Assembly (NCBI RefSeq): GCF_900090295.1
Contig: NZ_LT607753.1
Location: forward strand, 1,116,001 to 1,180,000
Direction: 5' to 3'
Origin: Micromonospora coxensis
GTDB taxonomy: Bacteria; Actinomycetota; Actinomycetes; Mycobacteriales; Micromonosporaceae
DNA length: 64,000 nt
A model generated the notes under the pieces. The model was not told the DNA's origin. It did no database searches and was given only the letters and a program-made list of their open reading frames with translations. Below are positions 9,283-56,550 of the stretch, piece by piece; the stretch's first letter is position 1, and each line of letters begins with the position of its first letter. A program made the position numbers and the translations under genes.

Positions 9283-9620
9283 TGCGCTGGCTGCACCTGC
9301 ACTCCGTGATCACCTGCGACCACGACGGCCGGGTGACGAACCGGGCCTCGCAGCGGTGGGTGACCGTCACCGGCGTGCCGGTGCTGGTCGACGACGACCC
9401 GGAGGGACGCCGCATCGTGGCCTGCCCCAACTACGGCCCGACGGTCAAACCGTGCGCGAAGACCCTGCCGGTGCGGGTCGGCTACAGCGACTGGCTGCGC
9501 GTCGACGGGCGCCGCATCGTGCTGTCGCACCTGGACGGGCTCACCGACGGCACCCCGCCGGCGCTGGTCCACCACACCGTCCGCGACCCGCGGCAGAACC
9601 TGGTGGAGGCGGACCGATGA
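9282..9620 (+). CDS. PAAR-like spike tip protein
   Basis: The 112-residue product lies right after the hub/spike gene, the usual place of the tip protein (Afp10/Pvc10). Its pattern HSVITCDHDGRV, SQRWVTVTGVPVLV, RIVACPNYGP and KPCAKTL, then DGRRIVLSHLDGLTDG, agrees with PAAR-like tip proteins of CIS. Three cysteines (in ITC, VAC and KPC) plus histidines could bind the metal that stabilises the pointed beta-cone. It starts on TGATG with the hub stop. There is no fused toxin domain. Confidence 0.78.
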   Translation: MRWLHLHSVITCDHDGRVTNRASQRWVTVTGVPVLVDDDPEGRRIVACPNYGPTVKPCAKTLPVRVGYSDWLRVDGRRIVLSHLDGLTDGTPPALVHHTVRDPRQNLVEADR

Positions 9621-10084
9621 GGGCGTTCCGGTTCGTCGGGGCCGGCTTCGACGCCGGCCGCACCGGTGGCCTGGCGTTGACCGCGGCCGGCGGGCTCGCC
9701 ATGACCGACGGCGACGAGACGGTACGCCAGGCGCTGTACCTGCTGCTGTCCACCACGCCCGGCGAGCGGCTGATGCGCCCCGGGTACGGCTCCCGGCTGC
9801 ACCGGCTGGTCTTCGCGCCGAACGACGACACCACCGCCGGGCTGGCCATCCACTACGTCCGGCAGGCGATCCGGCGGTGGGAGCCCCGGGTCGAGGTGCT
9901 CGACGTCGACGCCGGGCCGGACCCCGACGATCCGTGGCGGTTGGTGATCCGGCTCGACTACCGGGTACGGGCCAGCCTCACCCCCGGCCAGCTCGTGTTC
10001 TCCGTCGACCTGCAACCCGCCACCGCCGACGATCCGCCGGCCGGCGCGCCCGGCTCCGAGCCCGCCGAGGGGACCCCGTCATGA
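9617..10084 (+). CDS. Baseplate wedge protein, gp25/GPW family
   Basis: The 155-residue product contains the gp25-like core: residues near LAMTDGDETVRQALYLLLSTTPGERLMRPGYGSRL (shown as the motifs ETVRQAL, TTPGERLM and PGYGSRL), then IRRWEPRVEVLDVD and VIRLDYRVR. In T4 and CIS baseplates gp25 anchors the first sheath ring and triggers contraction. The ATG at 9617 overlaps the previous stop and its own stop overlaps the next ATG (ATGA). A short Pro/Ala-rich tail follows the domain. Confidence 0.93.
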   Translation: MRAFRFVGAGFDAGRTGGLALTAAGGLAMTDGDETVRQALYLLLSTTPGERLMRPGYGSRLHRLVFAPNDDTTAGLAIHYVRQAIRRWEPRVEVLDVDAGPDPDDPWRLVIRLDYRVRASLTPGQLVFSVDLQPATADDPPAGAPGSEPAEGTPS

Positions 10085-36341: not shown

Positions 36342-36385
36342 GCCCGCGGGCGCGTCGCGTGTTCCGCGCGGCGCGCCGGCAGGAC

Positions 36386-36423
36386 GTGGGCCGCCGCGTC
36401 CGGCGCTCAGCGCGGCGGCCCAC
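36386..36423. terminator. Perfect 13-bp hairpin downstream of the pectate lyase
   Basis: GTGGGCCGCCGCG (36386-36398) is exactly complementary to 36411-36423, with a 12-base loop. It begins 45 bases after the lyase stop. There is no T-tract, as is usual for hairpin terminators in high-GC actinomycetes. Confidence 0.65.
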
Positions 36424-36526
36424 CCACACCCCACCACCCGATCCCCTACCCGTACACCGTCGACCCCGTCGGCGGGGTGGAGGCGGCCGTCACCGCCGGC
36501 GCCGGCCACCTCGCACGGTGAGTCCC

Positions 36527-36562
36527 GGGTCCCGGCGCGGGCGTCCCACCGCGCCGGGACCC
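36527..36562. terminator. Perfect 14-bp hairpin before the sensor kinase
   Basis: GGGTCCCGGCGCGG (36527-36540) pairs exactly with 36549-36562 across an 8-base loop. It is a second strong hairpin in the same gap, about 140 bases before the kinase start, and may be a backup terminator or part of a leader structure. Confidence 0.6.
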
Positions 36563-36700
36563 ACCCCGCCGCCCGGATGGCCCGGCCCCCGCCCCCGGGC
36601 AGGTTGCTGCCGGGTCGACGTTCGAAGTCACCCCCCGCCGGGGACAATGGGGGCCGCGGGGCGACCGGACCCGGGCGACGAGGGGCGGGAGGTGGCCGCG

Positions 36701-39700
36701 GTGGGGACGTACGGATCGGCGTACGACGCCGCGGCGCGGGTCTTCCCCGGCGACGACCCCACCAGCGTGGCGCACCGGCACACCGACTGGGCGGCCACCC
36801 CGCTCGGCCCCGTGACGTCCTGGCCGGCCGAGCTGCGGGCGGCGGTGCGTACGGTGCTTCCCTCCACCATCCCGATGCTGCTGTGGTGGGGCCCCGAGCT
36901 GGTGCAGATCTTCAACGACGCGTACACGCCGATCATGGGCGACAAGTACCCGGCCGGCATCGGGCAGGCCGCCGCCGAGTGCTGGCCGGACGTGTGGGAC
37001 GCGATGGGACCGCTGGCCGAGGGCGTCCTCGCCGGCCGGGGCGCCGCGCACGGCGAGAACACCATGCTCTACATGTACCGGCACGGGTACTGGGAGGAGA
37101 CGTACTGGACGTTCTCCTACAGCCCGATCTGCGACGACCGGGGCGGGGTGGCCGGGATCTTCGTGGCCACCTCCGACGTGACCCGGCGGGTGGTCGGCGA
37201 CCGGCGCCTCTCCCTCCTGCGTGACCTGGGCGAACTCTCCATCGCCGAGGCGGACACCGCCGCCGACGCCGTCCGCGCCGCCGTCGCGGTGCTCGCCCGC
37301 GGCCATGCCGACCTGCCACTGGGCCAGGTCTACCTGCGCGAGCGCTTCGACGCGCCCGACGCCGACACGGCGCAGCAGGACACCCTGACCCTGGCCGCCT
37401 CCTTCGGCGAGGCTCCACCCGGGCGGCTGGCCACCGCCGGGCAACTGCCCGAGGTGACGCAGGTGCTGCGCACCGGACACCCGGCCCGGATCACCGACCT
37501 CGGCGAGCTGCTGCCCGAGTCCCACCGGCCCGACCTGCACCCGGGCACGGCCCCGGTCGTGGAGGCGGTGGCGCTGCCGCTGCTGGCCACCGGGCGCAGC
37601 CGGCCGGTCGGGGTGCTGGTGCTCGGGGTCAGCCCGTTCCTCGCCCTCGACGAGCCGTACCGGCACTTCATGGACCTCGTCGCCAGTCGGGTGTCGACCG
37701 CGCTGACCGACGTGCTGGCGTACGAGGCGCAGCGCCGCCGGGCCTCGGCCCTGGTCGAGCTGGACCGGGCCAAGACCGAGTTCTTCACCGACGTCAGCCA
37801 CGAGCTGCGCACCCCGCTGACCCTGATCGCCGCGCCGGTGCAGGAGAGCCTGGCCGACCGGCGCGAGCCCCTGCCGCCGGCGCAGCGGGAACGGCTGGAA
37901 CTGGTGCACCGCAACGTCGGCCGGCTGCGCAAACTGGTCAACGACATGCTCGACGTGGCCCGCATCGAGAGCGGGCGGACCGACCCGGACCGGGCGCCCA
38001 CCGACCTCGCCGCGCTCACCACCGGCGTCGCCGAGTCGTTCGCGCACGCCATGCGCCGCGCCGGGCTCACCTACACCGTCGACGTCGCGCCGCTGCCGCG
38101 CACCGCGTACGTCGACCGCGACATGTGGGAGAAGGTGGTGGTCAACCTCCTCTCCAACGCGCTCAAGTACACCCCGGCCGGCCGGGTCGAGGTGCGCCTG
38201 CGCGGCGACGACACCCACGCCACGCTCGCCGTCGGCGACACCGGCGTCGGCGTGCCCGCCGAGGAGCTGCCGCTGGTGTTCCGGCGCTTCCACCGGGCGC
38301 ACGGCGCCGGGCACACCGAGGGCACCGGGATCGGGTTGGCCCTGGTCCGCGAACTGGTCCACCTGCACGGCGGCGACATCGAGGTCGAGTCCGTCGAGGG
38401 CGCCGGCTCCACGTTCACCGTCCGGCTGCCGTACGGGACGGCGGCAGCGGCGGCGCAGCCGCCGGAGATCGGCGGGCCCGCGTACCCCCGGGAGGCCCTG
38501 AGCTGGACCGCGGCGAGGAGCACGGCGCCGGCCCCGGCGCCCGCGCCGGCCCGCCCCGCCGCGGCCCCGTCGGTGCTGGTGGTGGAGGACAACGCCGAAC
38601 TGCGCGCGTTCCTGGCCGGGCTGCTCGCGCCGCACTACCGGGTGGTGACCGCGGTGGACGGCCGCGACGCGCTCGAGCAGGCCCGCGCCCGGCCACCCGA
38701 CCTGGTCCTCACCGACCTGATGATGCCCCGGCTCGACGGCGTCGGGCTGCTGCGTGAGCTGCGCGCCGACCGGCGCACCGCCACCGTGCCGGTGATCGTG
38801 CTCTCCGCCCGCGCCGGGGAGGAGGCGGCCGTCGAGGGGCTGCGCGCCGGCGCCGACGACTACCTGGCCAAGCCGTTCTCCTCGGAGGAGCTGCGGGCCC
38901 GGGTCCGCGCCCACCTGGAGCTGTCCCGGCTGCGCAACCACGAGGCGACCTGGCGGGCCGCGCTGATCGACTCGTTGCAGGACGCGTTCGTGGTCATCGA
39001 ACCGGACAGCACGATCGTCGAGGCCAACGAGGCGTTCGGCCGGCTGGTCGGGATCGCGCGGCTGGAGCTGCCGCTGCGCCCGCCGTTCGCCTGGTGGCCG
39101 GAGGACCAGCTGGAGCCGGAGCAGCAGGCTCGCATCACCGGGGCGCTGGCCGCGGCGGCGCGCGACGGCCGGGGCCGGGTGACGCTGCCGGCGTGGCACG
39201 CCGACGGCCACCGGATCTGGGTGGAGGCCGTCTACAACTGCGTACGCGAACCGGGCACCGCCCGCCTGCTCTACGTGGCCACCCTGCGCGACGTGACGAC
39301 CGAGGTGGGAGCGGCGGCCCGCAGCGCGACCCTGGCCGCGCTGGCCTCCCGGCTGGCCGGGGCGACCGACATCGGCGAGGTGCTCGACGCGGGCCTGCGG
39401 GAACTCTGTGGGCTGGTCGGCGGCGCGCGCGGGATCGCGGTGGCGCTCGACGGCGCCGGCGCGCCGGTGGTGGTCGGCGCGGGTGTCGAGTTCACCGAAC
39501 CGGTCCGGCGGGTCCTCGCCGAGCTGCGGCCGGACGGCGAGCCCCAGCTGACCCGCGACGACGCCGGCCGGGTGACCGGGATCGGCGCCCGGATCGAGCC
39601 GGGGCACGCCGAGGGTGGCATCTGGGTGGAGCTGGACCGGCCGCGCCCGCTGCCGGCGCTGGACCTGCCGCTGGTCCGGCAGCTCGGCGGCGCGCTCGCC

Positions 39701-40822
39701 CAGGCGCTGGTCCGGGCCCGCGCCTTCCAGACGCAGCGCACGGTGGCCCTGGCCATGCAGCGGGCGCTGCTCGGCCCGGTCGAGCTGCCCGGCGGGTTCG
39801 CCGTGCGCTACGAGCCGGCGGTGCGTCCGCTGGAGGTCGGCGGCGACTGGTACGACGTGGTCCCGCTCCCCGACGACCTGGTCGGTGTGGTGGTCGGGGA
39901 CTGCGTGGGCCGGGGGCTGTCCGCGGCCACCGTGATGGGGCAGCTGCGCAACGCCTGCCGCGCCCTGCTGTTGCAGGCCAAGAGCCCGGCGGAGGTGCTG
40001 GCCGCGCTGGACGACTTCGCCCGGCTCGTCCCCGGCGGGGGCAACACCACCGTCTTCTGCGCCATCGTCGACCGGGCGCTCGGAGTGCTGCGGTACTCGT
40101 CGGCCGGGCACCCGCCCGCGATCCTCACCCACCCGGACGCCACCTCCGAACTGCTGGACCGGGCCGGTTCGGTGCCGCTGGCGAGCGTGACGGTCAGCGG
40201 CCGGCCCGAGGCCGAGGTGCGGCTGCGTCCCGGCTCCACCCTGCTGCTCTACACCGACGGCCTGGTGGAACGGCGGCGGGAGCTGATCGACGCGGGCATC
40301 GCCCGGGCGGTCGCCATCCTCACCGAGGGTCGTCAACTGCTCGAGGGTGAGCTGGCCGACCGGCTGGTGCGCGACCTGCTGCCCGACGTCCGCGACGACG
40401 ACGTCGCGGTGCTCGTCTACCGGCACCGGGAGCCGGCCCTCTTCCACGCGACGCTCGCCGCCGACCCGGCGCAACTGCGGCCCACCCGGGAGTCGCTGCG
40501 GGCCTGGCTGGTCGGGCTCGGGGTGGGCGAGTCGGACGTCGAGGCCGCGCTGATCGCCGTCGACGAGGCGTGCGCCAACGCCATCGAGCACGGCTACCGG
40601 TTCGCCCCCGGCGCCACCGTGACGGTCCGGGGACACCTGCGCGCCGACCGGCTGGAGGTCGAGGTCGCCGACACCGGCGGGTGGCGGGAGGCCGGCGCGG
40701 AGGGGTCGGAGCGGGGGCGAGGGCGATTGATCATGGCGCGGCTGATGGACGAGGCGGTCATCGACGGCACTCCGCGGGGGACGGTCGTGCGGCTGGTCAA
40801 GCGGCTGTCCGGCACCGCCTGA
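36701..40822 (+). CDS. Hybrid PAS/GAF histidine kinase - receiver - PP2C phosphatase - anti-sigma-like kinase
   Basis: The 1373-residue product joins several signalling modules. A PAS-like domain (to about 150; WWGPELVQIFNDAY) is followed by a GAF-like domain (165-340), HisKA with His367 in SHELRTPL, and HATPase (NLLSNALKYT, VGDTGVGVP, GTGIGLAL). A receiver follows with Asp672 in LTDLMMPRLDG and KPFSSEE, then a second PAS (about 755-870), a GAF-like part (880-1010), a SpoIIE-type PP2C phosphatase (GGDWYDVV near 1047, VVGDCVGRG, SAGHPPAIL, YTDGLVERR), and an RsbW-like HATPase (DEACANAIEHGY near 1288). It can therefore link two-component phosphotransfer to partner switching. No cognate regulator is adjacent. 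GTG 36701 has GGGAGG eight bases upstream; GTG 36692 and ATG 36647 are alternatives. Confidence 0.93.
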   Translation: MGTYGSAYDAAARVFPGDDPTSVAHRHTDWAATPLGPVTSWPAELRAAVRTVLPSTIPMLLWWGPELVQIFNDAYTPIMGDKYPAGIGQAAAECWPDVWDAMGPLAEGVLAGRGAAHGENTMLYMYRHGYWEETYWTFSYSPICDDRGGVAGIFVATSDVTRRVVGDRRLSLLRDLGELSIAEADTAADAVRAAVAVLARGHADLPLGQVYLRERFDAPDADTAQQDTLTLAASFGEAPPGRLATAGQLPEVTQVLRTGHPARITDLGELLPESHRPDLHPGTAPVVEAVALPLLATGRSRPVGVLVLGVSPFLALDEPYRHFMDLVASRVSTALTDVLAYEAQRRRASALVELDRAKTEFFTDVSHELRTPLTLIAAPVQESLADRREPLPPAQRERLELVHRNVGRLRKLVNDMLDVARIESGRTDPDRAPTDLAALTTGVAESFAHAMRRAGLTYTVDVAPLPRTAYVDRDMWEKVVVNLLSNALKYTPAGRVEVRLRGDDTHATLAVGDTGVGVPAEELPLVFRRFHRAHGAGHTEGTGIGLALVRELVHLHGGDIEVESVEGAGSTFTVRLPYGTAAAAAQPPEIGGPAYPREALSWTAARSTAPAPAPAPARPAAAPSVLVVEDNAELRAFLAGLLAPHYRVVTAVDGRDALEQARARPPDLVLTDLMMPRLDGVGLLRELRADRRTATVPVIVLSARAGEEAAVEGLRAGADDYLAKPFSSEELRARVRAHLELSRLRNHEATWRAALIDSLQDAFVVIEPDSTIVEANEAFGRLVGIARLELPLRPPFAWWPEDQLEPEQQARITGALAAAARDGRGRVTLPAWHADGHRIWVEAVYNCVREPGTARLLYVATLRDVTTEVGAAARSATLAALASRLAGATDIGEVLDAGLRELCGLVGGARGIAVALDGAGAPVVVGAGVEFTEPVRRVLAELRPDGEPQLTRDDAGRVTGIGARIEPGHAEGGIWVELDRPRPLPALDLPLVRQLGGALAQALVRARAFQTQRTVALAMQRALLGPVELPGGFAVRYEPAVRPLEVGGDWYDVVPLPDDLVGVVVGDCVGRGLSAATVMGQLRNACRALLLQAKSPAEVLAALDDFARLVPGGGNTTVFCAIVDRALGVLRYSSAGHPPAILTHPDATSELLDRAGSVPLASVTVSGRPEAEVRLRPGSTLLLYTDGLVERRRELIDAGIARAVAILTEGRQLLEGELADRLVRDLLPDVRDDDVAVLVYRHREPALFHATLAADPAQLRPTRESLRAWLVGLGVGESDVEAALIAVDEACANAIEHGYRFAPGATVTVRGHLRADRLEVEVADTGGWREAGAEGSERGRGRLIMARLMDEAVIDGTPRGTVVRLVKRLSGTA

Positions 40823-40869: not shown

Positions 40870-40884
40870 TATAAGTAGGGGATG
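40870..40884 (+). promoter_or_regulatory. Possible -10 element giving a leaderless HD-protein mRNA
   Basis: TATAAG (40870-40875) is followed by six bases and then ATG 40882, so transcription could begin on the start codon itself. The GTAGGGG directly abutting the ATG is too close to serve as a ribosome binding site. No good -35 is seen. Confidence 0.45.
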
Positions 40885-41598
40885 GAGCTCCCGCCGTACC
40901 TCGCGACCATGCCGATGCACGCGATCACCGAGATCCACGGTGAGCGTGGCCTGCTGGAGCGGTTCCGGCTGGAGATCCGAACCTTCGACCCGGCGGCCCG
41001 CGAGCGCCTCACCGAGGCCCTCGACCTCGCCGCCGACCTGCACCGTGACGACCGGCGGGTACGCGAGCCGTACCTCAACCACCTGCTGCGGGTGGCGATC
41101 CGGATGATGCACCACTACCAGGTGCGTGACGTCGACGTCATCGTCGCCGGCCTGCTGCACGACGCGGTGGAGGACCACCCCGACGAGCTGGCCGGTCCGG
41201 GCGCCGCCGACCCGACAGCGGCGGCGCTGGCCGCGCTCGCCGACCGTTTCGGCCCGCGCGTCGCCCGCCTGGTCGGCGCGGTCACCAATCCGGCGTACGA
41301 CCCGGGCCGCGACCGGCACGTCCAGTACCGCGAGCACGTGGCGGCCAGCCTGGACCGGGAGCCGTGGGCCCGGGTCATCAAGATCTCCGACTTCACCGAC
41401 AACGGGCTGGGCGTGGTCTACACCATCGGTCCGAAGGTGGCCCGCTCGGCGGCGAAGTACCGCCCGCTGGTGCCGGTGTTCCGGGACCTGATCTCCCGGC
41501 CGGACACACCGCTGTCCGCGCCGGTGAAACGGCACATCTTCGCCCAGCTCGACCTGGCCGAGGAGCGGTTCAGCGCGATCCTCGACCAGCCGAACTAG
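40882..41598 (+). CDS. HD-domain phosphohydrolase, RelA/SpoT hydrolase-like
   Basis: The 238-residue product carries an HD fold of the SpoT type: REPYLNHLLRVAIRMMHHY (first metal His), VAGLLHDAVEDHPDEL (the HD pair and the ED motif of (p)ppGpp hydrolases), FGPRVARLVGAVTNP and ARVIKISDFTDN (the last metal Asp). Only the hydrolase-like part is present; there is no synthetase domain. It could be a small alarmone hydrolase or act on another nucleotide. It stands alone between the sensor and a small membrane protein. A leaderless start is suggested by TATAAG six bases upstream. Confidence 0.82.
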   Translation: MELPPYLATMPMHAITEIHGERGLLERFRLEIRTFDPAARERLTEALDLAADLHRDDRRVREPYLNHLLRVAIRMMHHYQVRDVDVIVAGLLHDAVEDHPDELAGPGAADPTAAALAALADRFGPRVARLVGAVTNPAYDPGRDRHVQYREHVAASLDREPWARVIKISDFTDNGLGVVYTIGPKVARSAAKYRPLVPVFRDLISRPDTPLSAPVKRHIFAQLDLAEERFSAILDQPN

Positions 41599-42182: not shown

Positions 42183-45100
42183 TCAACCGGCCTGCGGCGT
42201 GTTCGCGGGCACCCTGGCGTACCACTGGCGGACGTCCCGGGCGTGCACGCTGAGCCGTCCCTCCGGCACGGTGGTGGTCCGCACCACCGCCTCCCGATGC
42301 GCGACCAGCAGGTCACGCAGCCCCGCATGCCTCATGGACATCGCCTGCAGCGCGCGTATCCGGGTGAAGGAGACCTGGGGCAGCAGTTCCGCCACCTGGT
42401 CCTCGTCGGGCAGGACGCGGTCCAGTGGCACGTCCTGGGCGGACGCGGCCGCGAGGCTGAAGAACAGCTCGGTCGGAGTGGCCGGGCGCCGGGCACTCAC
42501 CGCGTCGATGCTCTGCCGTTGGCCGGTACGCACCCACGGCACGTCCGCCGGGAGGTGGGCCATCGCCCAGGCGGCGTGATGCGGCACGGTGAGATTCACG
42601 GTCAGCGTCTGCTTCCGGGGCAGCGCCAGCTCCACCCCGCGCGCTCGCGCCAGCCAACCGACCCACCCGATGGTCGTCCACCGACGCTGCTCGTCGAGGA
42701 CCATGGTGCGCGCCAGTTCGCCGGGCAGGTCCCGTACCGATGCCTCCGCGAGGTCCCAGGCCAGATCGGGGTCGTGCCGGTCGACCGCCGTCACCAGGTC
42801 GTAGGAGACGTCCAGGCCGGTGGCCGCGACGACGTCCGCCGGCGTGAGGCGGCCGACCGCGTCGACGACCTCCGCCGCGTCGTCGCCGTGGTCGGCGAGG
42901 TCGAACGCGTTGATCAGGCGCGGCACCGCCACCAGGTCGTCCCGCCGCCCGTAGCCGAGTCGCCCGGCGAGCCGGTCGACCGAGATCTCGCCGGCGATGG
43001 CGCGGCTCCAGTCGTCCCGGCCCCACAGCAGGAACACCCGGAGCAGATCGGCGACCCGACGCGGCCCGGCGATCAGGTGCGCCGTCTTCGACCAGCGGGA
43101 GAAGACCTTCTCGGTCCAACTGCTGTACGTCCGCCCCGGCAGCAGGCCCACCCGGGCCAGGTGCCGCACGGCGGCGAACAGGCTGGCCGGGTCCTGGAGG
43201 TGTTCGAGTTCGGTGGTGAAGACCCGCCAGCGGTGCGAATGGCCGCTCACCGTCTCGAGCAGTCGGCGCCCCGCGTCCGGGCTCACCCGCTCGACCGCCG
43301 CCATCAGGTCGGCCGCGTCGAGCTGGTGGTTGAACATCGCGAATCCGACCTGGCGTTCCAGCGGGGTGTTCCGTCTCCCGCTGCGGTCCGTGACCGGCCG
43401 ACTGACCTCGTCGAGCACGGCCTTCGCGCGTTCGGGGTGCAGACGCTCCAGAACGCGGAGCACGGACGCCGTCTGGCCCGGGGTGGCGCTGCGCCGCAGG
43501 CGCTTGCCCCAGCCGACGCCGCCCATCCGCCCTTCGACGGCGTCGAGCACCTGATGACCGGCGTCGGAGAGACCGGCCAGGGTGAGCGTCTGCGCGGTGG
43601 CCAGGCACCACTGCACCGTGGCGTCCGGTGAGAAGGACAGCAGGCGCGAGTGGAGGTTCCCGGGGTCGAAGTGCCGCAGGTACTCGCCCGCGATGCCCGG
43701 GTACAGGGCCCGACCCAACCGGTGGAAGTGCACCTGCGCGTCCGGCGTCGGGGCGTTGCGCATGGCGTGCAGCAGCCGCTGGTGGGAAACCCGGGCGGAC
43801 AGCTCCCGCATGGCCACCTCACCCAGCTCACGGTCCTCGCCGAGCATGACCGCCAGTTGCGGCCCCCAGGAGCGCAGCGACTTGTTGATCTCGTTGGCGA
43901 CGGCCTCGACGGCCGCCTCCATGATCTCTTCCCGGTAGTCGATGCCGGCCTGCCAGACGCCCTTGATCAGGTAGTACTTCGTCGAGGTGCGGGGATCGTT
44001 GGCCACCTGGTCGAGCACCCACTGCCGGCCGAGGAAGCCGGCCAGGAGATGGGCGAAGGACGCCCCGGTGAAGCGGTATTGGTCGTCGATCGCCTGGGTC
44101 ACCGAGAGCAGCATCCCGGCGCCCTTGCCGTCGCGCGCCTGGGTCACCCGGGACGCCAGGTGCTGGGCGAGGGTCTTGTGCGCGGTGGAGTCCCGGTCGG
44201 TGGTGATGACCCGGAACGCCGTCATGCCGTGGATCCGCAGGACCGTGTTGAGCAGGTCGGCCGCCTCCGTCGGCAGCGCGTCGACCAGCAGCAGGTTCCG
44301 TACCGCCGAGTCGAAGTGCCGGAACTCGTTGAGCAGCATGGTGCAGAACTGCGGGTTGTAGTCGTACAGCTCGCCGAGGGCGAGCCGGAGTTCCCGGGCC
44401 TTGCTGGACCGCATGGACTTGCGGATGCGTTCCTCGTGCGTCCTGATCACCGCACGCCAGTCGGTGTCCTCCCGGCCGAAGTGCATCCGCAGGGTCAGCC
44501 ACGCGAGTTGCAGAGCCACGCCACGGTTCGCCGGCGGGACGCTGTCCAGCAGGTCCTGCACGTCGGGCTCGTTGTCCACCGGAGCGGCCCACACGCCATC
44601 GCCGGTGGCCTGCCGGATCAGCTTGTCCACCCGGCGCACCGTGATGTAGTCCAGCACCCGGTTGCGGGACAGCCCGCGCAGGATCTCGCTGCCCCGCTCC
44701 CGCAGGACCGTGTTCGTCACGTCGTGGTGCAGTCGCACCATCCGGTACTCGATGCGGAAGAGGTCGGTCCGGTTGCGCGGGCCGATCGCCCGGTCGAGCT
44801 GCGCGGCGAAGGCTTCGGCCACCCACTCGGCGCAGCGGTCGAACGCCGCGTCCTCGATCAGGTCCCGACGTCGGGCCAGCACGTAGAGGACATCGGCCAG
44901 ACCGGCCGGGGTCATGGCGCGGGAGCTGTCCGGCAGGGTGTCCGCGAACTGCTTCAGCAGTCGCGGCAGCAGGTCGTCACCGAGCGCGCCGTCGACGAGT
45001 CGGAGCAGCGCGGCGCGTTCTGCGACGTCGACGTTGGACATCCAGGTGGCGAAGCCGTCCACCCGCTTGGCGGCGGCGATGATGCCGTCGCACACCGCCT

Positions 45101-47180
45101 CGGAGCCGAGCCGGGCACCGCGCAGCAGGGACAGGACGTCACGCTGGGACGGGTCGGCCACCCGCAGGGCGTTGACCAGCTCCCGGCCGCCCAGCTCGAT
45201 CAGGACCGGGTCGATGGACTGGTCCGGGTGTGCCCCCGGCTGGTCGTCACGCCCGTACTCCCGCAGGACCTGCCGACACCGCTGGTAGCTGCTGAAGCGC
45301 CAGTGTCCCCGCCGGTATCCCCGCTCCGCGCCCAGCGCGATCAGCTCCTGCGGGGTGAGACCCTGCAGGTGTCGCTCATGGGTCTCACTGCGCAGCAGCG
45401 ACCGTGCCGCCATGCCCGCCACCTGGTCCCGGCCACCGTCACCGAGGCGACCGAACAGGTTGCGGAACTCCGCCTCGGCCTGCTGCACGCTGCGACCGCC
45501 GGCCGCGTCCGCGAGGGCTGCGGTGAGGGCCCGGGCGTCGTTGGGGTACCGCTCGGCCAGGCTGCGTACGGTCGCCGAGTCGACGCCGGCCAGTTCCGGC
45601 GTCTGGGCGACCAGGGTGAGGGCGAAGAGGCGGCTCGCCTCCACCCCACCGGGCGCGGTGACCACCGCCACCGTGTCGGTCTCCCAGTCCCTCAGGCTGT
45701 GCGGCTCGTAGCGCAGCACCGCGAGGACCGAGGCGTCGAGCTGCTCGGCCACCTCGGGCAGGATCCGGTCGACGTCGCCCTCACCCACCGGCAGCAGGTC
45801 GTCGAGGATCAGCAGCCGGGGGCCGGCGCCGGCCTCGGCCAGTGCCAACGCGTGCCGGCCCAGCGCCACCAGTTCGTCGGTCTCCGGCAACCACGTGGCG
45901 TTCACGCTCATCATGGCGACCGTCCACCGCGGGGCCGGTGCGTCGGGGGCGGCGAGCCGGCGGGCCACCTGGCCGGCGATCACGGTCTTGCCGCTGGACG
46001 CCGGCCCGCCCAGGACGACAGTGGCCACCGGCCGGTTGCGCAGCACGCTCAGGATCTCGTCGACCTGCCCCATGGGGGCCTCGGGCACCGGCTCCCGGAC
46101 CGGCCGGCTCCAGTCCCGCAGATAGCAGTCCCGCCGCTCCAGCAGGGCGCGGCGGCAGCGGCCGGCCCAATTCTCCCAGTCATCCCCCCACAGCACGCGC
46201 GCCGCGCCGTCGACGTCGCGCCGGTCGTCCGGGAGCGACTCGCCGCCGCCGTCGACCCGCAGCAGCCGCCATCCTCCGCCGGCCGGCACGAGCAGGGCGT
46301 CGTGGCGACCGTCGACACGCAGCGCGGCCAGCCGGGAGGCGGCCTCGTCCTCGTCCATCGGCACGAACTGCCCGCCCTCCCACGCCCCGGCCGCCACCAC
46401 CCGGCGCCGGGGCATTCCGACCAGCTCGCCCAGGAGCCACAGGGCCGCCGGCAGGGCCAGGGTCGCGTCCTCGATCGTGGTCGGCGGCAGGCAGCCCGGC
46501 ACCCCGTACCGGGTCGGCGCCGGACGGGTGGCGAACTCCAACTCCTCGAGGAGCAGGCCGACGGCCTCGGCGGCTGCGGACAGGGCCGACCGGGACGTCG
46601 CGGTCAGCGGCTGCCAGCCCTGCTGAGGGCCGTGGCCCCGACCGGGGGACGACCTCTGCACCGGTGCGTTCGTGTCGGGGGCCGGCCCGCCCTCGCCGTT
46701 CGTCGTGGCTGTCGCCGTCGGGACCGGCGACAGCCCCAGCAGCAGGTGACCGTTGCGGGCCGGACGGGCGACGGTGACCTCCAGTCGCCGCTCGCGTCGA
46801 CGCAGGTCGTCCCGGTACGCGGCGTCGCCGGCGCCGTCGACCCACGGCCGGGGGCCGCCGTCCAGCACCTCGACGAGCGCGCAGAGCCGGTCGAAGGCGG
46901 GGACGTCCAGCACCTCGGCCAGCCCCGGGTCCACATCGGTGGAGGTGACGGCGTCACAGAGCCACTTCACCGCGTCCAGGTCGTCGGCGGTGAAGCCGTA
47001 TCCGAGGTTCGCCGCGCCATCGTGTGCCACGCTGCGGACCAGCGTGTCGACGACGTCGGCGTCGAGCTGCCCGAGCACCGCACCGATCCGGTGCGGGTCC
47101 CCGCCGCCGCGCCGGATCTGGTCGAGCGCCAGCAGAGCGCCGACGACAAGCTCCCGCGGTCCTGGCTCCGGCATGGACAC
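42183..47180 (-). CDS. Giant P-loop NTPase with long alpha-helical C-terminus (conflict-system type)
   Basis: The 1665-residue product has no recognised N-terminal domain in the first 200 residues. The P-loop domain follows: Walker A GGPASSGKT (to 399) and Walker B LLILDDL (456-461), about 60 residues apart as in STAND/NACHT-like NTPases. After about residue 560 it continues for 1100 residues as helical repeats without similarity I can name, ending in a helix-rich sensor-like region. No nuclease or TIR domain is visible. It is third in line behind the alpha/beta hydrolase and caspase-like genes (128-base gap). A sensor or amplifier of a defence/programmed-death system is the best guess. I start at GTG 47180, placed behind GGGGGAG; ATG 47174 is the alternative. 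Confidence 0.8.
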   Translation of the reverse strand: MSMPEPGPRELVVGALLALDQIRRGGGDPHRIGAVLGQLDADVVDTLVRSVAHDGAANLGYGFTADDLDAVKWLCDAVTSTDVDPGLAEVLDVPAFDRLCALVEVLDGGPRPWVDGAGDAAYRDDLRRRERRLEVTVARPARNGHLLLGLSPVPTATATTNGEGGPAPDTNAPVQRSSPGRGHGPQQGWQPLTATSRSALSAAAEAVGLLLEELEFATRPAPTRYGVPGCLPPTTIEDATLALPAALWLLGELVGMPRRRVVAAGAWEGGQFVPMDEDEAASRLAALRVDGRHDALLVPAGGGWRLLRVDGGGESLPDDRRDVDGAARVLWGDDWENWAGRCRRALLERRDCYLRDWSRPVREPVPEAPMGQVDEILSVLRNRPVATVVLGGPASSGKTVIAGQVARRLAAPDAPAPRWTVAMMSVNATWLPETDELVALGRHALALAEAGAGPRLLILDDLLPVGEGDVDRILPEVAEQLDASVLAVLRYEPHSLRDWETDTVAVVTAPGGVEASRLFALTLVAQTPELAGVDSATVRSLAERYPNDARALTAALADAAGGRSVQQAEAEFRNLFGRLGDGGRDQVAGMAARSLLRSETHERHLQGLTPQELIALGAERGYRRGHWRFSSYQRCRQVLREYGRDDQPGAHPDQSIDPVLIELGGRELVNALRVADPSQRDVLSLLRGARLGSEAVCDGIIAAAKRVDGFATWMSNVDVAERAALLRLVDGALGDDLLPRLLKQFADTLPDSSRAMTPAGLADVLYVLARRRDLIEDAAFDRCAEWVAEAFAAQLDRAIGPRNRTDLFRIEYRMVRLHHDVTNTVLRERGSEILRGLSRNRVLDYITVRRVDKLIRQATGDGVWAAPVDNEPDVQDLLDSVPPANRGVALQLAWLTLRMHFGREDTDWRAVIRTHEERIRKSMRSSKARELRLALGELYDYNPQFCTMLLNEFRHFDSAVRNLLLVDALPTEAADLLNTVLRIHGMTAFRVITTDRDSTAHKTLAQHLASRVTQARDGKGAGMLLSVTQAIDDQYRFTGASFAHLLAGFLGRQWVLDQVANDPRTSTKYYLIKGVWQAGIDYREEIMEAAVEAVANEINKSLRSWGPQLAVMLGEDRELGEVAMRELSARVSHQRLLHAMRNAPTPDAQVHFHRLGRALYPGIAGEYLRHFDPGNLHSRLLSFSPDATVQWCLATAQTLTLAGLSDAGHQVLDAVEGRMGGVGWGKRLRRSATPGQTASVLRVLERLHPERAKAVLDEVSRPVTDRSGRRNTPLERQVGFAMFNHQLDAADLMAAVERVSPDAGRRLLETVSGHSHRWRVFTTELEHLQDPASLFAAVRHLARVGLLPGRTYSSWTEKVFSRWSKTAHLIAGPRRVADLLRVFLLWGRDDWSRAIAGEISVDRLAGRLGYGRRDDLVAVPRLINAFDLADHGDDAAEVVDAVGRLTPADVVAATGLDVSYDLVTAVDRHDPDLAWDLAEASVRDLPGELARTMVLDEQRRWTTIGWVGWLARARGVELALPRKQTLTVNLTVPHHAAWAMAHLPADVPWVRTGQRQSIDAVSARRPATPTELFFSLAAASAQDVPLDRVLPDEDQVAELLPQVSFTRIRALQAMSMRHAGLRDLLVAHREAVVRTTTVPEGRLSVHARDVRQWYARVPANTPQAG

Positions 47181-47308
47181 GGCGCATCTCCCCCTCGGAG
47201 GACGCACCCTCGACCGGACGAGAGACCACCCGACAGGCATGGCGTCCATACTCGACGCTGGTGATCGTGAGCCGTCAGCCTAATCGTCGATCCGTCGTCA
47301 GATCGCCT

Positions 47309-50300
47309 TCATCGGATATGCGACAGCACGGTCAACGTCGAGGCCGACTGCACGACGAGCAGGTCCCCGACGGCCCCCACGCCGGTCGGGGCGTCGTCCC
47401 AGGGCAGCTCCGTCACCTCGCCCAGATCCACGTCGTACACCCGCAGCCACCGGTCGCCGGCGATCGCGACGAACCGGTCGGCGGCGGCGACGCTCATCGC
47501 CGGGGTACGGCTCGGCAGCCCGACGGTGGCACGTAGCCGGTGCACCGCCACGTCACCCCGAGCGCCGATCCAGGCGACGACCGTCCCGGCGGGGGACATC
47601 GACAGCGCGTGCACCGTGCCGGAGAGGATCGGGGTGCCCGCCCGAACCGGGGCGCCGTCCGGGCTGACGTCCACCACCTGGATGCGTCCCCGCACGGTCG
47701 CGACGGCCGCCCGTCCGCCACTCATCCGCACCGCGCGGGTGGGTCCCCCGCCGAGCGGGTGGGGGCGGACGTCACCCTCGACCGGGTCCAGCACCGTCCA
47801 GCCGCTGTCGGCGGGCAGCACGATCCGGCCGTCGCCGGTCCAGGAGACGCTGTCCAGCACCCTTCCGTCCGGTGGTCGTACCTGATCCACCCGCCCCTCG
47901 GTGGGATCCCAGACGTCGACGCCACCGTCGGATCGGGCGATCGCCACGACCGGCGTCCCCCGCCGTACCGTGAGGGCCAGGGCGGACGGCACCGCCCGGT
48001 CCGCCGGCGCGGGCAGCTCGCCCACCGGCGCCAGGTCCGGCACCCGCCAGAGCCGCACCACACCGTCGTCGTGGGCGGTCGCCGCCAGGCCGTCGGTCAC
48101 GCTCACCCGGTACATCGGGGCGCCTTCCACGGTGCGTGCCGCGTCGGGCCGCCACCGCGCCTCGGGTGACGTGTCCTCGACGAGTTCGGCCACACCGTGT
48201 CGCCGGGCGAGCAGGGACAGCAGGAAACCTCTGTTCCCCGTCACCCTCGGCCGGGCGCGCAGGGCCGCGCAGACGGCGCGCAACCCCTCCGCCACGTCGT
48301 GGATGTCGGCGGCGGCGAGCGCCGGATCCGTCGGCGCGGGCAGGGCGGCGAGCAGGAAACCGTGGTTCAGCAGATAGGGCCGGACCGTGCCGGCGCGGGG
48401 TAGGCATCGCAGGACGGCGCGGACCAGGAACGGGTCGGCCGTCGACCAGTCCGGCCCCTCCGGCGTGGCGGGGACGAGGTCGCGCAGGACCGCGACGACC
48501 CGTTCGACCGGCACCCGGGCCGGCGACGCCGGCGGCGACACCGGAAGACGCCAGGCCGACGTGCCCGTCTCCGAGCCGGTGCGGGTCAGCAGGCCGGCCA
48601 CCGCGTCGACCGCGTCCGCCACGTCCTGCGCGGTCCGGTCCCTGCCCGCGAGACCGCTGGCCAACGACGGCCAGAACGCCTCCGGCACCGGCTCGTCGGG
48701 CAACGCGTCCAGCGGGGCCACCAGATCCGCCGCCCAGCGGTCGTCGCGCCGCAGGTCCCGCAGGGTGTGCAGGAGGTCGCTGTGCAGGACGGCGGCGATC
48801 GCCGTCCGCGCCCCGGACAGCGTGCCACCGCCGCACAGTTCCCGAGCGGCGCGGGCCGCCGCCCGGAAGCTCGTCCGACACAGGGGGGCGAGCTGGTGGG
48901 CGAGGTTCTCGGCCTCCCGCCGGCCGTCCGGCCCCTGCGCGTACGGCGACCCGGGGGCACGGACGAGCCGCTGCCGCAGATAGACGCGGAGGTCCGTCGA
49001 CGTGTCCGGCAACTGGTCCAGCCGCAGCAGCACCGCGTCCGGCCGGACGCCGAACGGGTCGCCGCCGCGCACGGCCGCCACCAGGCGCACCGAGGGCAGC
49101 TTCGCCAGGTCGGCCAGCAGTCCCCCGAGTTCGTGGGCATCGGCCGCCGACTCGTGGGTGAGGTCGACGAGGATGCCGTGGCACCCGGGATCGTCCGCCA
49201 GGCGGGCGATCAGCTCGGCGGGGGCGAGGCGCAGGCCGCCGTAGAGCTGTGCGCTGATCTCCCGGGCGGCGTCGGCGACCGGGTGGTGGTACCGGATCCG
49301 CAGCGCGGCGGAGACCAGGCCCGGCGCGACGCCGACGGACCTGCGCAGCGGCCGGGGCAGACGCTCCCGCATCCGCCGGTCGCCGGTGACCGCGGCCCAG
49401 CCGAGCAGGGCGGACTTGCCACAGCCGCGAGGCCCGGTGACCACCATCGGCCCGCCGTGGGGACCGCTCAGGTGCGCGGTCAGCAGCGCCATGGCCGACC
49501 GGCGGCCGGTGAAGAACCAGCCCTTCTCGTCCCGGTCCTCGACCCCGCGCGCGACCCCGCGCCAGGACGCGTCCAGCCAGAGCGGCGCGTCCAGTGGCAG
49601 GTGACGGGGATTCGGCAACATCCGGCTGGGCACCACCCGCTGGGTGATCGGCCGCGCCTCCTGCCCCGCCGGCAGGCGGAGGTTGACCGCCGCCATCAGG
49701 TCCTCCACGACGAGGTACTCGTCGGTCTGCCGACCGTCCCCGACGACGTGGGCGAACGCGTCGGCGAAGGCGAGCTGCTTCGCGACCTCGTTACGGGATG
49801 CGGCCGAGACCACGCAGAAGTTCACCCGGGTCGCCTCGCGTTGGGTGACATCGCTCAGCTTGCCGACCGCCTCCGTCACCCCGTGCTGGGCGTAGCAGGC
49901 GTCGAGGATGAGGACGAACTCGTCGAGCACGGGAAACGTCAGGGCCGGCATCAGGAGATCGGCGGCAGGGACCATCGTCCTGGCGACGTGCAGGGGGTTG
50001 CCCTCCCTGCCGGGCAGGTGCCAGGTGTCGTCGATGGTGCGGACGTACCCGTGCCCGGTGTAGTAGACCAGCAGGCGCAACGGTGGCGGCTGTTCCTCGC
50101 CGTCGCGCTCCCGCTTCCGCGCGGCCAGCCACTCGTTGAGTGTCCAGCGCAGCCAGTCGCTGTCCCTGTCGTCGTCCGGCACGTCCGGGAACAGCTCCGT
50201 CAGGCCGAGGCCGGTGAGCGTACGCCGCATCACCCGGAGCTCGTCGGGCACGTGGACGAGTTCGGCGAACTCCCCGCCCTCCGGGTACGACTTCGTCCCG

Positions 50301-50350
50301 GCCAGCAGGAAGTACCGCTCCGGCTCAGTCGAGGGCGGCGGCGAGGACAT
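47309..50350 (-). CDS. Caspase-like protease - P-loop NTPase - WD40-like beta-propeller protein
   Basis: The 1013-residue product has an N-terminal caspase/metacaspase p20-like domain: RYFLLAGTKSYPEG, LVYYTGHGYV with His100, and FVLILDACYAQHG with Cys152, the expected His-Cys dyad. A P-loop domain comes next (GPRGCGKS with Lys312, FFTGRRSAM before it, LVDLTHESAAD and VRLVAAVRGG as Walker-B-like region). From about residue 745 repeated beta motifs (DGVVRLWRVPD, DGGVDVWDP, RIQVVDVSPDG, LRVYDVD) form a WD40-like propeller. This is the layout of bacterial caspase-STAND proteins implicated in regulated death. The start lies inside the hydrolase stop (26-base overlap), so both are translated together. 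Confidence 0.88.
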   Translation of the reverse strand: MSSPPPSTEPERYFLLAGTKSYPEGGEFAELVHVPDELRVMRRTLTGLGLTELFPDVPDDDRDSDWLRWTLNEWLAARKRERDGEEQPPPLRLLVYYTGHGYVRTIDDTWHLPGREGNPLHVARTMVPAADLLMPALTFPVLDEFVLILDACYAQHGVTEAVGKLSDVTQREATRVNFCVVSAASRNEVAKQLAFADAFAHVVGDGRQTDEYLVVEDLMAAVNLRLPAGQEARPITQRVVPSRMLPNPRHLPLDAPLWLDASWRGVARGVEDRDEKGWFFTGRRSAMALLTAHLSGPHGGPMVVTGPRGCGKSALLGWAAVTGDRRMRERLPRPLRRSVGVAPGLVSAALRIRYHHPVADAAREISAQLYGGLRLAPAELIARLADDPGCHGILVDLTHESAADAHELGGLLADLAKLPSVRLVAAVRGGDPFGVRPDAVLLRLDQLPDTSTDLRVYLRQRLVRAPGSPYAQGPDGRREAENLAHQLAPLCRTSFRAAARAARELCGGGTLSGARTAIAAVLHSDLLHTLRDLRRDDRWAADLVAPLDALPDEPVPEAFWPSLASGLAGRDRTAQDVADAVDAVAGLLTRTGSETGTSAWRLPVSPPASPARVPVERVVAVLRDLVPATPEGPDWSTADPFLVRAVLRCLPRAGTVRPYLLNHGFLLAALPAPTDPALAAADIHDVAEGLRAVCAALRARPRVTGNRGFLLSLLARRHGVAELVEDTSPEARWRPDAARTVEGAPMYRVSVTDGLAATAHDDGVVRLWRVPDLAPVGELPAPADRAVPSALALTVRRGTPVVAIARSDGGVDVWDPTEGRVDQVRPPDGRVLDSVSWTGDGRIVLPADSGWTVLDPVEGDVRPHPLGGGPTRAVRMSGGRAAVATVRGRIQVVDVSPDGAPVRAGTPILSGTVHALSMSPAGTVVAWIGARGDVAVHRLRATVGLPSRTPAMSVAAADRFVAIAGDRWLRVYDVDLGEVTELPWDDAPTGVGAVGDLLVVQSASTLTVLSHIR

Positions 50351-51152
50351 CGGCGCAGTGCGCGTTCTTCAGGTACCAGGTCACGTCGTGCGCTCGCAGC
50401 CGCGGATTCGCGCACAGCCGGTCGTCGACGCGGTGGTCGTACACCTCGGAGAGCGTCTTGACCATCGCCACCGCGTCCTGCCGGGCGGCGATGTTCACCC
50501 AGCCGGCGACGCTGCCCGGCCAGCCGTCACCGGGTCCGACGGGCGGCACCAGCCGGTCGACGACGGCCCTCAGCCCCAGCGGCGAGCCGAGGGTGACCAG
50601 TGTCCGCACCGGCCAGTCCGGATTGTTCCGCAGCGCCTCGTAGGCCACGATGCTGCCCAGCGAGTGGCCGACCAGGACCCTGGTGTCCTCGTCGACGGCG
50701 GCGGCCACCTCCTGCTGGACCCGCCACCGCAGGTCGGTGTCGTCGAGGTAGCGGTGGACCTGTTTGACGAAGCGGACGATGAGGCTGGTGGTCGCCGTGC
50801 CGAAGAAGGTCGTCCGTTGCAGCACCGCCAGGGCGGCCTGGACGCCCTGCGGCAGGTAGACCTTCGTCGGTTCGGTCGCCTCCGTCTGCTCGGCCGCCAC
50901 CGCGTCGTGCAGCGCCCAGAACAGCTCGGTCTCGAAGCCGTCGTCGAGGTCGTCGAGGTGGTACTGCGGCCCGGCGCCCTTGCCGTCGTTGTAGAGATCG
51001 CCGTAGAAGGCCGGAGCGAAGGCGACCTCGGCCGCCCGGGGGTGTCGTCGATTGTGCAGGCCGCTGCGGATCGCCGCGCCCCACAGCTCGGACATCTGTG
51101 CCCGGGACTGCCAGTTCCACATGATGCCGTGCACACCCACGATCTCCGCCAC
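50325..51152 (-). CDS. Alpha/beta hydrolase (lipase/esterase-like) of the caspase operon
   Basis: The 275-residue product starts with IVGVHGIMWNW (oxyanion-loop HG) and has the nucleophile elbow GHSLGS with Ser164, followed by LVTLGSPLGL. His265 in KNAHCADVL near the C-terminus is the likely third catalytic residue. No signal peptide is present, so it is a cytoplasmic enzyme, possibly acting on lipids, peptides or modified proteins. It is the first gene of the unit with the caspase-like and giant NTPase genes. Short alpha/beta hydrolases of this 'VHGI' kind are frequent effectors or helpers in NTP-dependent conflict systems of actinomycetes. Confidence 0.85.
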   Translation of the reverse strand: MAEIVGVHGIMWNWQSRAQMSELWGAAIRSGLHNRRHPRAAEVAFAPAFYGDLYNDGKGAGPQYHLDDLDDGFETELFWALHDAVAAEQTEATEPTKVYLPQGVQAALAVLQRTTFFGTATTSLIVRFVKQVHRYLDDTDLRWRVQQEVAAAVDEDTRVLVGHSLGSIVAYEALRNNPDWPVRTLVTLGSPLGLRAVVDRLVPPVGPGDGWPGSVAGWVNIAARQDAVAMVKTLSEVYDHRVDDRLCANPRLRAHDVTWYLKNAHCADVLAAALD

Positions 51153-51700: not shown

Positions 51701-52633
51701 TCAGGCCGCTTTGAAAACCGTGTCGAGGTGCCATTCGAGGAATTCGGCGTGGGGTCGATCCGCGCGGCGCGCCGGCACCGCGATCGGCGTACCGGCCCTG
51801 GCGTAGAACTGGTCGCCGTTTCCGAACTCGCTTCGCAACCGCGGACTGACCAGCAGACGGTATTTCGGGTCGACGCCCAGATAACCCCGGTCGAACAGGA
51901 TGTGCACGTCCGACTTCAACAGCAAGCCATTGTCGAGTCGGTGCTCTCCACCCTCGGGCAACGGTCGGATATGCGCAGCCTGGAGCACCGGTCGCACCTT
52001 GTTCCCGGTGATGGCGCACCGTCGACCGTAGGCACCGAGCACGACGGCCTTGAAGGACTGCTGGCCGAGACGCTGCGGCACCAGGCGTGGGTCGCCGTAG
52101 ACCGGACCAGGGCGATGCCACGGCTCGCTGAGGTCGATCTCGACGGTGGCGCCGATCAGTCGGTGCAACAGCAGTTCGAAGTACCGGGTGACGGCCGGGT
52201 CGGCCAGGTCGTAGGTCTTGCCCTGCACCACGTTGGACGCGAAGCCGGGAGGTGGGTCGACGGTCGACTCGTCCGGGAAGAACACCGTGTCCCGGACGAA
52301 GATGCAGCCGATCACGGGATCCTCATCGGGCCCGATCGGCGCGCGACGGTACCGCCCGACGCTGTCGCGCATCGCCGCGAGGCTGGCGACGCCGTTCGCC
52401 TCGCCGAACAACTCCCAGGCCTCGGAGATCCGCAGCTGGGTGAAGCCGCTGAAGAAGCCTCCACCGACCACCCGATTCAGCGGGTGGTGGGCCTTGAAGA
52501 GGAAGGGTTCACCGGGCGTCAGGGCGCGGAAACCGCCGCCGGACGGGCGCCAGAAGTTGACCTCTGTCAGGTCCGGGCGGGCGGCGAGGAACCGGTACCA
52601 CTTCTCGTCGGTGACCCCGACAAAAGCCTTCAC
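51701..52633 (-). CDS. HNH endonuclease with a possible PUA/EVE-like N-terminal reader domain
   Basis: The 310-residue product ends with an HNH nuclease: CAITGNKVRPVLQAAHIRPL, then NGLLLKSDVHILFDRGYLGVD (first Cys, HI-R, N, H-IFD), near residues 200-255. The N-terminal 95 residues (KAFVGVTDEKWYRFLA, then FLFKAHHPLNRVVGGGFFSG and ISEAWELFGEANG) have the beta-barrel look of PUA/EVE/ASCH modified-base readers, which in modification-dependent restriction enzymes are joined to HNH. This is a plausible type IV restriction enzyme without a methylase nearby. The gene looks less GC-rich than its neighbours, a sign of transfer. Confidence 0.8.
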   Translation of the reverse strand: MKAFVGVTDEKWYRFLAARPDLTEVNFWRPSGGGFRALTPGEPFLFKAHHPLNRVVGGGFFSGFTQLRISEAWELFGEANGVASLAAMRDSVGRYRRAPIGPDEDPVIGCIFVRDTVFFPDESTVDPPPGFASNVVQGKTYDLADPAVTRYFELLLHRLIGATVEIDLSEPWHRPGPVYGDPRLVPQRLGQQSFKAVVLGAYGRRCAITGNKVRPVLQAAHIRPLPEGGEHRLDNGLLLKSDVHILFDRGYLGVDPKYRLLVSPRLRSEFGNGDQFYARAGTPIAVPARRADRPHAEFLEWHLDTVFKAA

Positions 52634-52685: not shown

Positions 52686-52925
52686 TCAGGGCTCGCGCAT
52701 CCAGAGCTTCGGATCGTTGACGAAGATGCCCTTGCCTTGATGACGCCAGATCACCCGGAGCGCTTCGAGGCGCACGTAGGTCTGCTTCACGGTCGACGGG
52801 CTGACCTTGTGCGTCGCGGCCAACTGGGCGATCGAGGGCAGCTTGTCGCCCGGCTTGAGCCTCTTGGCTCTGATGTCGGCGACGATCTCGTCGGCGATAC
52901 GGATGTAGTCGGCGGTGATCGGCAT
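52686..52925 (-). CDS. Minimal GntR-family DNA-binding protein
   Basis: The 79-residue product is little more than a winged helix: ITADYIRIADEIVADIRAKRLKPGDKLPS then IAQLAATHKVSPSTVKQTYVRLEALRVI and the wing WRHQGKGIFV. There is no effector domain, so it is an autonomous wHTH, common near plasmid-like or defence loci. ATG 52925 stands behind GGGGGAG. It lies 52 bases upstream of the HNH gene on the same strand and may control it. The imperfectly AT-rich spacer upstream has an inverted repeat (52990-53014) that could be its operator. Confidence 0.85.
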   Translation of the reverse strand: MPITADYIRIADEIVADIRAKRLKPGDKLPSIAQLAATHKVSPSTVKQTYVRLEALRVIWRHQGKGIFVNDPKLWMREP

Positions 52926-52989
52926 GACTCCCCCTGCGTGGCATGCCAATTCGATCACGCAAGGAGACCCGTCAACAACTCTATGTTTG

Positions 52990-56422: not shown

Positions 56423-56550
56423 TCCGTCTTCCGATCGCACACCGACACCGCCCACGCCTCGACAGGCGCAGCTCTGTCTCTCGTTGAGAACCAACTTATG
56501 GAGCCATTAGCGGCCTCACAGCATTTGGGCCGACTGATCCCCCGTACCGG

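Follow-up and report, generated by a model that had tools for sequence, protein, structure and literature searches.

A 64,000-nucleotide stretch of DNA from the soil actinomycete Micromonospora coxensis (hereafter the window, to which all unlabeled coordinates refer) contains three consecutive genes, all on the minus strand, that were confirmed as a real, conserved unit. They encode an alpha/beta-hydrolase (gene 1), a protein that joins a caspase domain, a STAND-like NTPase and a propeller (gene 2), and a giant STAND protein (gene 3). The parts of this cassette, which recurs even among distant relatives, resemble animal cell-death machinery, and together they probably form a self-sacrifice immune circuit; on balance, we favor an immune role in which the STAND, caspase and hydrolase proteins kill or arrest a cell under attack. 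Labels beginning with G denote genomes and those beginning with L denote fetched loci. The cassette has the following features:

50325..51152, minus strand: gene 1, alpha/beta-hydrolase, 275 amino acids, Ser164/Asp226/His255 (codons checked)
50841..50900, minus strand: gene 1 loop (residues 85-104), hypervariable in length, with its end near Lys97; candidate caspase cut site
50325..50350, minus strand: overlap of genes 1 and 2, 26 bases
47309..50350, minus strand: gene 2, caspase, STAND-like NTPase, helical region and propeller, 1013 amino acids
49565..50323, minus strand: gene 2 caspase domain, approximately residues 10-262, with His100, Cys152 and the DAC motif
48491..49564, minus strand: gene 2 NTPase and helical region, approximately residues 263-620, Walker A Lys312
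47312..48166, minus strand: gene 2 C-terminal propeller, residues 729-1013
42183..47174, minus strand: gene 3, giant STAND protein, 1663 amino acids (the longest open reading frame starts at 47249)
44979..46163, minus strand: STAND module of the giant, approximately residues 338-732
45984..46007, minus strand: Walker A of the giant, GPASSGKT, residues 390-397
42888..44978, minus strand: modeled portion of the giant's alpha-solenoid, approximately residues 733-1429 (mean predicted local distance difference test score, pLDDT, 85.1)

These coordinates confirm the 26-base, same-strand overlap of the hydrolase and caspase genes described in an earlier note on this DNA. The spacing of the two genes lies between -26 and +4 bases in eight of ten relatives, with the other two hinging on uncertain starts.

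Conservation of the trio was established from two different seeds. When 150 genomes of the order were searched with the giant, one other genome was found (G015, same genus, ~30% identity), in which a gene-2 relative lies directly upstream of the giant. A contig scan of genomes with the single giant sequence returned no matches, whereas an alignment-based profile did find loci: nine more were recovered from 84,980 species genomes, eight of them from Streptomyces and the ninth from Micromonospora rosaria, and a second protein search with the giant alignment gained just one further relative. All of the giant-seeded relatives (10/10) hold the hydrolase, gene 2 and the giant in identical order on one strand, while the remaining neighbors around the first ten vary from locus to locus. 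Seeding with the hydrolase instead, gene 2 and the giant were found beside it in every genome (9/9) with a match above 300 bits (G000, G015, G254, G436, G371, G307, G990, G1196 and G1122). A chance neighborhood of three unrelated genes is contradicted both by this reciprocal co-occurrence and by the sharing of the trio among loci whose surrounding genes differ; it was therefore rejected, and we give it practically no credence. In total, 17 distinct cassette loci were found, window included, all of them within the window's class. The neighborhood conservation on which the earlier note had made its proposal depend was thus found.

Pairwise distances of the three proteins across 14 loci were correlated with r between 0.979 and 0.991 (permutation p 0.0001), a value inflated by the kinship of the sequences. 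The cassette is rare and patchy, occurring in 3/396 and 2/150 genomes, and the proteins of the same-genus copy are just 28-45% identical to those of the window; most of the giant-profile matches, which numbered 82 of 396, are short P-loop stretches and were left out. The hydrolase was found at E<=1e-40 in 0/35 of a sample of G243's order. The giant had no match in viral contigs and none in a plasmid collection (72,556 records), and phages yielded two weak hydrolase matches (26%). At L131 (G264:C32, ~6605-8043), the giant is present only as short pieces in separate frames and represents a decayed copy.

Judged from its sequence, gene 2 carries a caspase (clan CD, C14) with a His-Cys dyad in a caspase-type domain. 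H100, D150 and C152 are invariant across 14 aligned rows, and the NCBIfam model caspase_w_EACC1 matched 11/11 members, the window protein scoring 47.7 bits, below the 140-bit cut-off; Pfam Peptidase_C14 was matched in 1/11 members. For the NTPase region, AAA_16 was matched in 11/11, NACHT in 3/11 and nSTAND1 in 2/11 members at E<=0.05, with the window protein itself below the cut-offs, and Walker A Lys312 is Lys in 13 of 14 loci (Arg in L012). The His100/Cys152 dyad and the P-loop lysine, both pointed out previously, were upheld by these comparisons. When the predicted gene-2 structure was compared with the PDB using Foldseek, Apaf-1 and the apoptosome ranked first. VIA-align rows for gene 2 span the propeller only, saying nothing on the caspase or NTPase, and a PDB sequence search with gene 2 likewise returned propellers only. 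Scanning genes 2 and 3 with Pfam reported no EAD or Death-like adaptor domain, which does not prove that such domains are absent.

The giant is predicted to be a STAND NTPase, as its P-loop is modeled within a module of nucleotide-binding, helical and winged-helix domains. A sequence-library match to nSTAND_NTPase5 was sub-threshold and a PDB sequence search returned P-loop noise only. Structural alignment of the module gave SAMD9 (14.4), 8bob (13.4), 6mfv (12.6), Apaf-1 (11.5) and NLRs (~11), and also included CED-4. The previously described Walker A was located at residues 390-397 (GPASSGKT), its Lys is kept in 14/14 loci, and the fold is of the STAND type. Structure prediction, which the earlier note had proposed as a check, gave a STAND module followed by a long alpha-solenoid.

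Gene 1 belongs to the alpha/beta-hydrolase superfamily, given a nucleophile elbow with a Ser-acid-His arrangement. Its Pfam matches, Hydrolase_4 and PGAP1, are both below cut-offs, and a PDB sequence search with the hydrolase found no relative. Ser164, Asp226 and His255 are kept in 17/17 cassettes and in 120/120 top relatives; of the two catalytic residues named previously, Ser164 stands, and His265 was rejected since His255 is the conserved histidine.

The hydrolase family is large, with 6301 of 7997 scored candidates passing E 0.001, and it includes a two-gene form of the cassette, a hydrolase with a caspase-NTPase(-WD40) protein, for which we know of no name. At 180-240 bits, all 12 loci have a caspase-NTPase neighbor and none has the giant. 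These loci share with the cassette the hydrolase family and the first two gene-2 domains (12/12), but differ from it in lacking the giant, in their longer gene 2 (one frame of 1409-1934 amino acids in 11/12) and in a loop residue considered below (Lys in 2/17 versus 17/17). Propeller-type repeats were detected by our own profile in 10/12 of them, and extensive Pfam WD40 arrays are present in several. The hydrolase tree separates cassettes from pairs by a 99/98 branch, and the cassette branch has values of 96/88. Since the giant is missing from all 12 loci, it is taken to be a later addition or a split; most simply, a two-gene module came first and either gained the giant or passed its sensing part to a separate protein, with the propeller becoming smaller in the process. 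At L143 (G993, 6604-11719, minus strand), a caspase-NTPase frame of 952 amino acids overlaps a separate propeller frame of 869 amino acids, which may reflect a natural split or a frameshift.

Five of the nine hydrolase matches at 150-171 bits were fetched (L149-L153), and a caspase-profile neighbor was present in four (not in L149) and the giant in none. In L150-L153, the hydrolase lies on the opposite strand to the caspase-profile protein with the starts apparently facing away, a divergent arrangement of the pair. Hydrolase relatives also occur in 54 of 72,556 plasmid records, with a caspase-profile match alongside in 7/9 fetched, and hydrolase-caspase neighbors are present on plasmids of cyanobacteria and rhizobia. 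A megaplasmid two-gene relative (L133, Rhodococcus ruber pmega_1) lies near PIN, helicase, integrase and SIR2 genes in a setting that resembles a defense island.

The hydrolase contains a loop, flanked by two conserved helices, that differs widely in length and sequence. A Lys near its end is present in 17/17 cassettes and in 120/120 best relatives, and the two-gene pairs have K or R at this position in 15/17 (Lys specifically in two), compared with a basic residue in one of eight outgroup hydrolases. The pairs comprise the 12 genome loci and five of nine fetched plasmid loci; L135, L137, L139 and L140 were excluded, having no caspase-profile match or a lower score. Two of the outgroups, L061 and L064, lie next to a gene of NTPase or weak caspase type, and of the other six, L063 has the basic residue. 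In the caspase TbMCA2, Asp211 sits two residues before the catalytic Cys. This Asp is among the proposed substrate-pocket residues (PMC4357240), and the cleavage sites of orthocaspases follow positively charged residues (PMC6426788). The kept basic residue, the orthocaspase specificity and the Asp of the DAC motif lead us to propose that the hydrolase is cut or released at the loop, making the basic residue at its end a candidate caspase cut site.

The cassette occupies a variable site whose two border genes lie outside it:

40882..41598, plus strand: HD-domain gene, left border (Pfam HD_4)
52686..52958, minus strand: GntR-family gene, right border (Pfam GntR)

Orthologue-level matches to the HD gene are present in 29 of the 31 genomes of the genus (in two of them split), with only weak matches in G886 and G888. 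In all eight stretches fetched from sister strains the left border is present and the cassette absent (no profile match, E<=1e-4), and the GntR gene is collinear in six, whereas the stretches fetched for L123 and L130 do not contain it. Chosen genes, rather than every gene, of the variable-site cargo in these eight relatives were scanned with PADLOC. L130, in which only the left border is seen, holds BREX (BrxHI 1069.7, PglZ 869.4 and BrxC 1225.7 bits), L127 an AbiEi-like gene (45 bits), L126 a PDC-M28B match (89 bits) with TIR-type matches, and L129 a PDC-M09A match (56 bits); among the chosen genes scanned, a single match (19.8 bits) came from L123 and none from L125 or L128. The site therefore holds BREX, AbiEi-like or candidate defense genes in four of eight sister strains, a guilt-by-association argument of moderate strength.

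An HNH endonuclease-type gene (51701-52633, minus strand; PADLOC HNH, 70.9 bits) also lies in the window. In L124, which has no cassette, this HNH gene recurs next to the GntR gene (the HNH-GntR stretch being 79% identical in DNA), and the HNH gene is thus assigned to the site and not to the trio. Elsewhere in the window, a 933-amino-acid protein (9877-12678, plus strand; Baseplate_J, 58 bits) suggests a contractile-injection cluster in its first part, and a 1487-amino-acid hybrid (36359-40822, plus strand) combines histidine kinase, receiver, PAS/GAF, SpoIIE phosphatase and anti-sigma-type ATPase domains. A 923-amino-acid open frame with codon bias and without a Pfam or PADLOC match (53723-56494, minus strand) may be a gene.

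The earlier reading of the trio as an NTP-dependent conflict system is supported in part, by the STAND fold of the giant, the first rank of Apaf-1 for gene 2 and the defense genes at the variable site (4/8). As to how such a cassette would work, the likely course is as follows. Judging by its fold, the giant with its long solenoid would serve as invader sensor and first switch. Once activated it would engage gene 2, whose propeller may restrain gene 2 or dock the signal in an Apaf-1-like manner, and assembly of gene 2 would bring the fused caspase domains together. With an acidic residue two positions before its Cys (DAC), the caspase would be expected to cut after Lys or Arg, and the hydrolase, as its dedicated partner, would be cleaved or set free at the basic residue closing its hypervariable loop. 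The Ser-Asp-His hydrolase, which is lipase/PGAP1-like, could then attack a membrane lipid or other ester and stop the cell. A further-reaching reading, suggested here tentatively, is a sensor-helper NLR relay in which the giant senses and triggers the Apaf-1-like gene 2, whose caspase, carried in cis, fires a dedicated lipase-type executioner by cutting at its activation-loop-like segment. In this reading, a one-switch ancestor consisting of hydrolase and caspase-NTPase-WD40 would have handed sensing to a separate giant, with parallels in plant sensor/helper NLR pairs and the animal apoptosome-caspase axis.

It is also possible, if doubtful, that within the same immune cassette the caspase cuts the giant, itself, or a host or phage protein, with the hydrolase acting as a parallel effector or brake and the loop residue being structural. 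The opposite strands of the two genes in four of five loci at 150-171 bits (L150-L153) show that tight hydrolase-caspase coupling is not universal, and loop Lys occurs in just 2/17 two-gene pairs. The loop pattern was moreover spotted post hoc, and the residue may have a structural role instead. Conversely, a basic loop-end residue is retained despite the variable loop length in 17/17 cassettes, 120/120 relatives and 15/17 pairs, against 1/8 outgroups, which speaks against this alternative.

A different function altogether, as a module for cell death during development or stress in mycelial actinomycetes and not directed against invaders, would fit the restriction of all 17 cassettes to the window's class, several of them in Streptomyces, and the additional role of STAND proteins in regulating transcription, the giant's second fold match, 8bob, coming from the maltose system. 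We regard it as unlikely, in view of the rarity and patchiness of the cassette (3/396; 2/150), the low identity of the same-genus copy (28-45%) and the variable site with its defense genes. That the target is plasmids or conjugation rather than phage seems quite improbable: the hydrolase relatives on plasmids (54/72,556), beside a caspase-profile match in 7/9 fetched, would agree with it, but the giant has no match in the plasmid collection.

If the proposed mechanism holds, an entire NLR-caspase-executioner pathway in minimal form, including two distinct STAND proteins, would be encoded by one operon, an arrangement that is, to our knowledge, unusual in bacteria. Signal transfer from a STAND sensor to a second STAND protein would become directly testable, the conserved loop residue would provide a one-residue test of caspase cutting, and the two- and three-gene forms would constitute a natural record of sensing and execution parting into separate proteins. 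The substrate of bacterial caspases paired with alpha/beta-hydrolases, a question left by the 2020 report (PMC7159879), would also be open to experiment.

Among known systems, a caspase next to an alpha/beta-hydrolase was reported for VMAP systems by Kaur et al. 2020 (PMC7159879). As in these vWA-MoxR ternary systems, the caspase of the cassette is accompanied by an alpha/beta-hydrolase gene (17/17 cassettes), but it is fused to an NTPase and propeller and is joined by a second, giant STAND protein. VMAP-C (PF20028) had no match in the genome of the window, compared with matches in 15 of 118 genomes sampled, and neither MoxR nor vWA was found among the window neighbors scanned with Pfam, on which grounds VMAP membership was rejected. 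Across 19 VMAP regions, the hydrolase profile matched two, weakly (31 and 37 bits), and the caspase profile none, indicating a link that is real but distant. At L119, a hydrolase matched by our own profile at 37.4 bits adjoins a protein that combines VMAP-M18 and Peptidase_C14; the VMAP-C match that led there was absent from a later Pfam scan of the latter protein. The EACC1-caspase two-gene system (Kaur et al. 2020, PMC7159879) is close in that caspase_w_EACC1 is the nearest curated caspase model and matched 11/11 members. Membership was rejected because the 5' gene of the cassette is a hydrolase and the window caspase scores 47.7 versus 140 bits. None of the cassette proteins matched any PADLOC 2.0 family at E<=0.01, and membership in a PADLOC system was likewise rejected.

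The Apaf-1 apoptosome and CED-4 resemble the cassette through the NTPase-helical-propeller layout of gene 2, for which Apaf-1 has the best PDB rank; they differ from the cassette in that its caspase is fused in cis, two STAND proteins are present and a hydrolase is the partner, at ~12% identity. In antiviral STAND (Avs) and bacterial NACHT proteins, unlike in the cassette, the effector is fused to the same protein as the STAND NTPase. Avs and bacterial NACHT proteins (PMC10907252) do have in common with the cassette a STAND NTPase with a C-terminal helical sensor. No description of the trio was found in openly licensed literature, subscription papers and most preprints lying outside that search. 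The earlier claim of novelty thus survives in part: the trio matches no PADLOC model, while the caspase-hydrolase pairing is already known from PMC7159879 and two-gene loci are common. The parts and this pairing belong to known kinds, and what is new to the sources searched is that a second STAND protein, the giant, and a shrunken propeller are combined with them.

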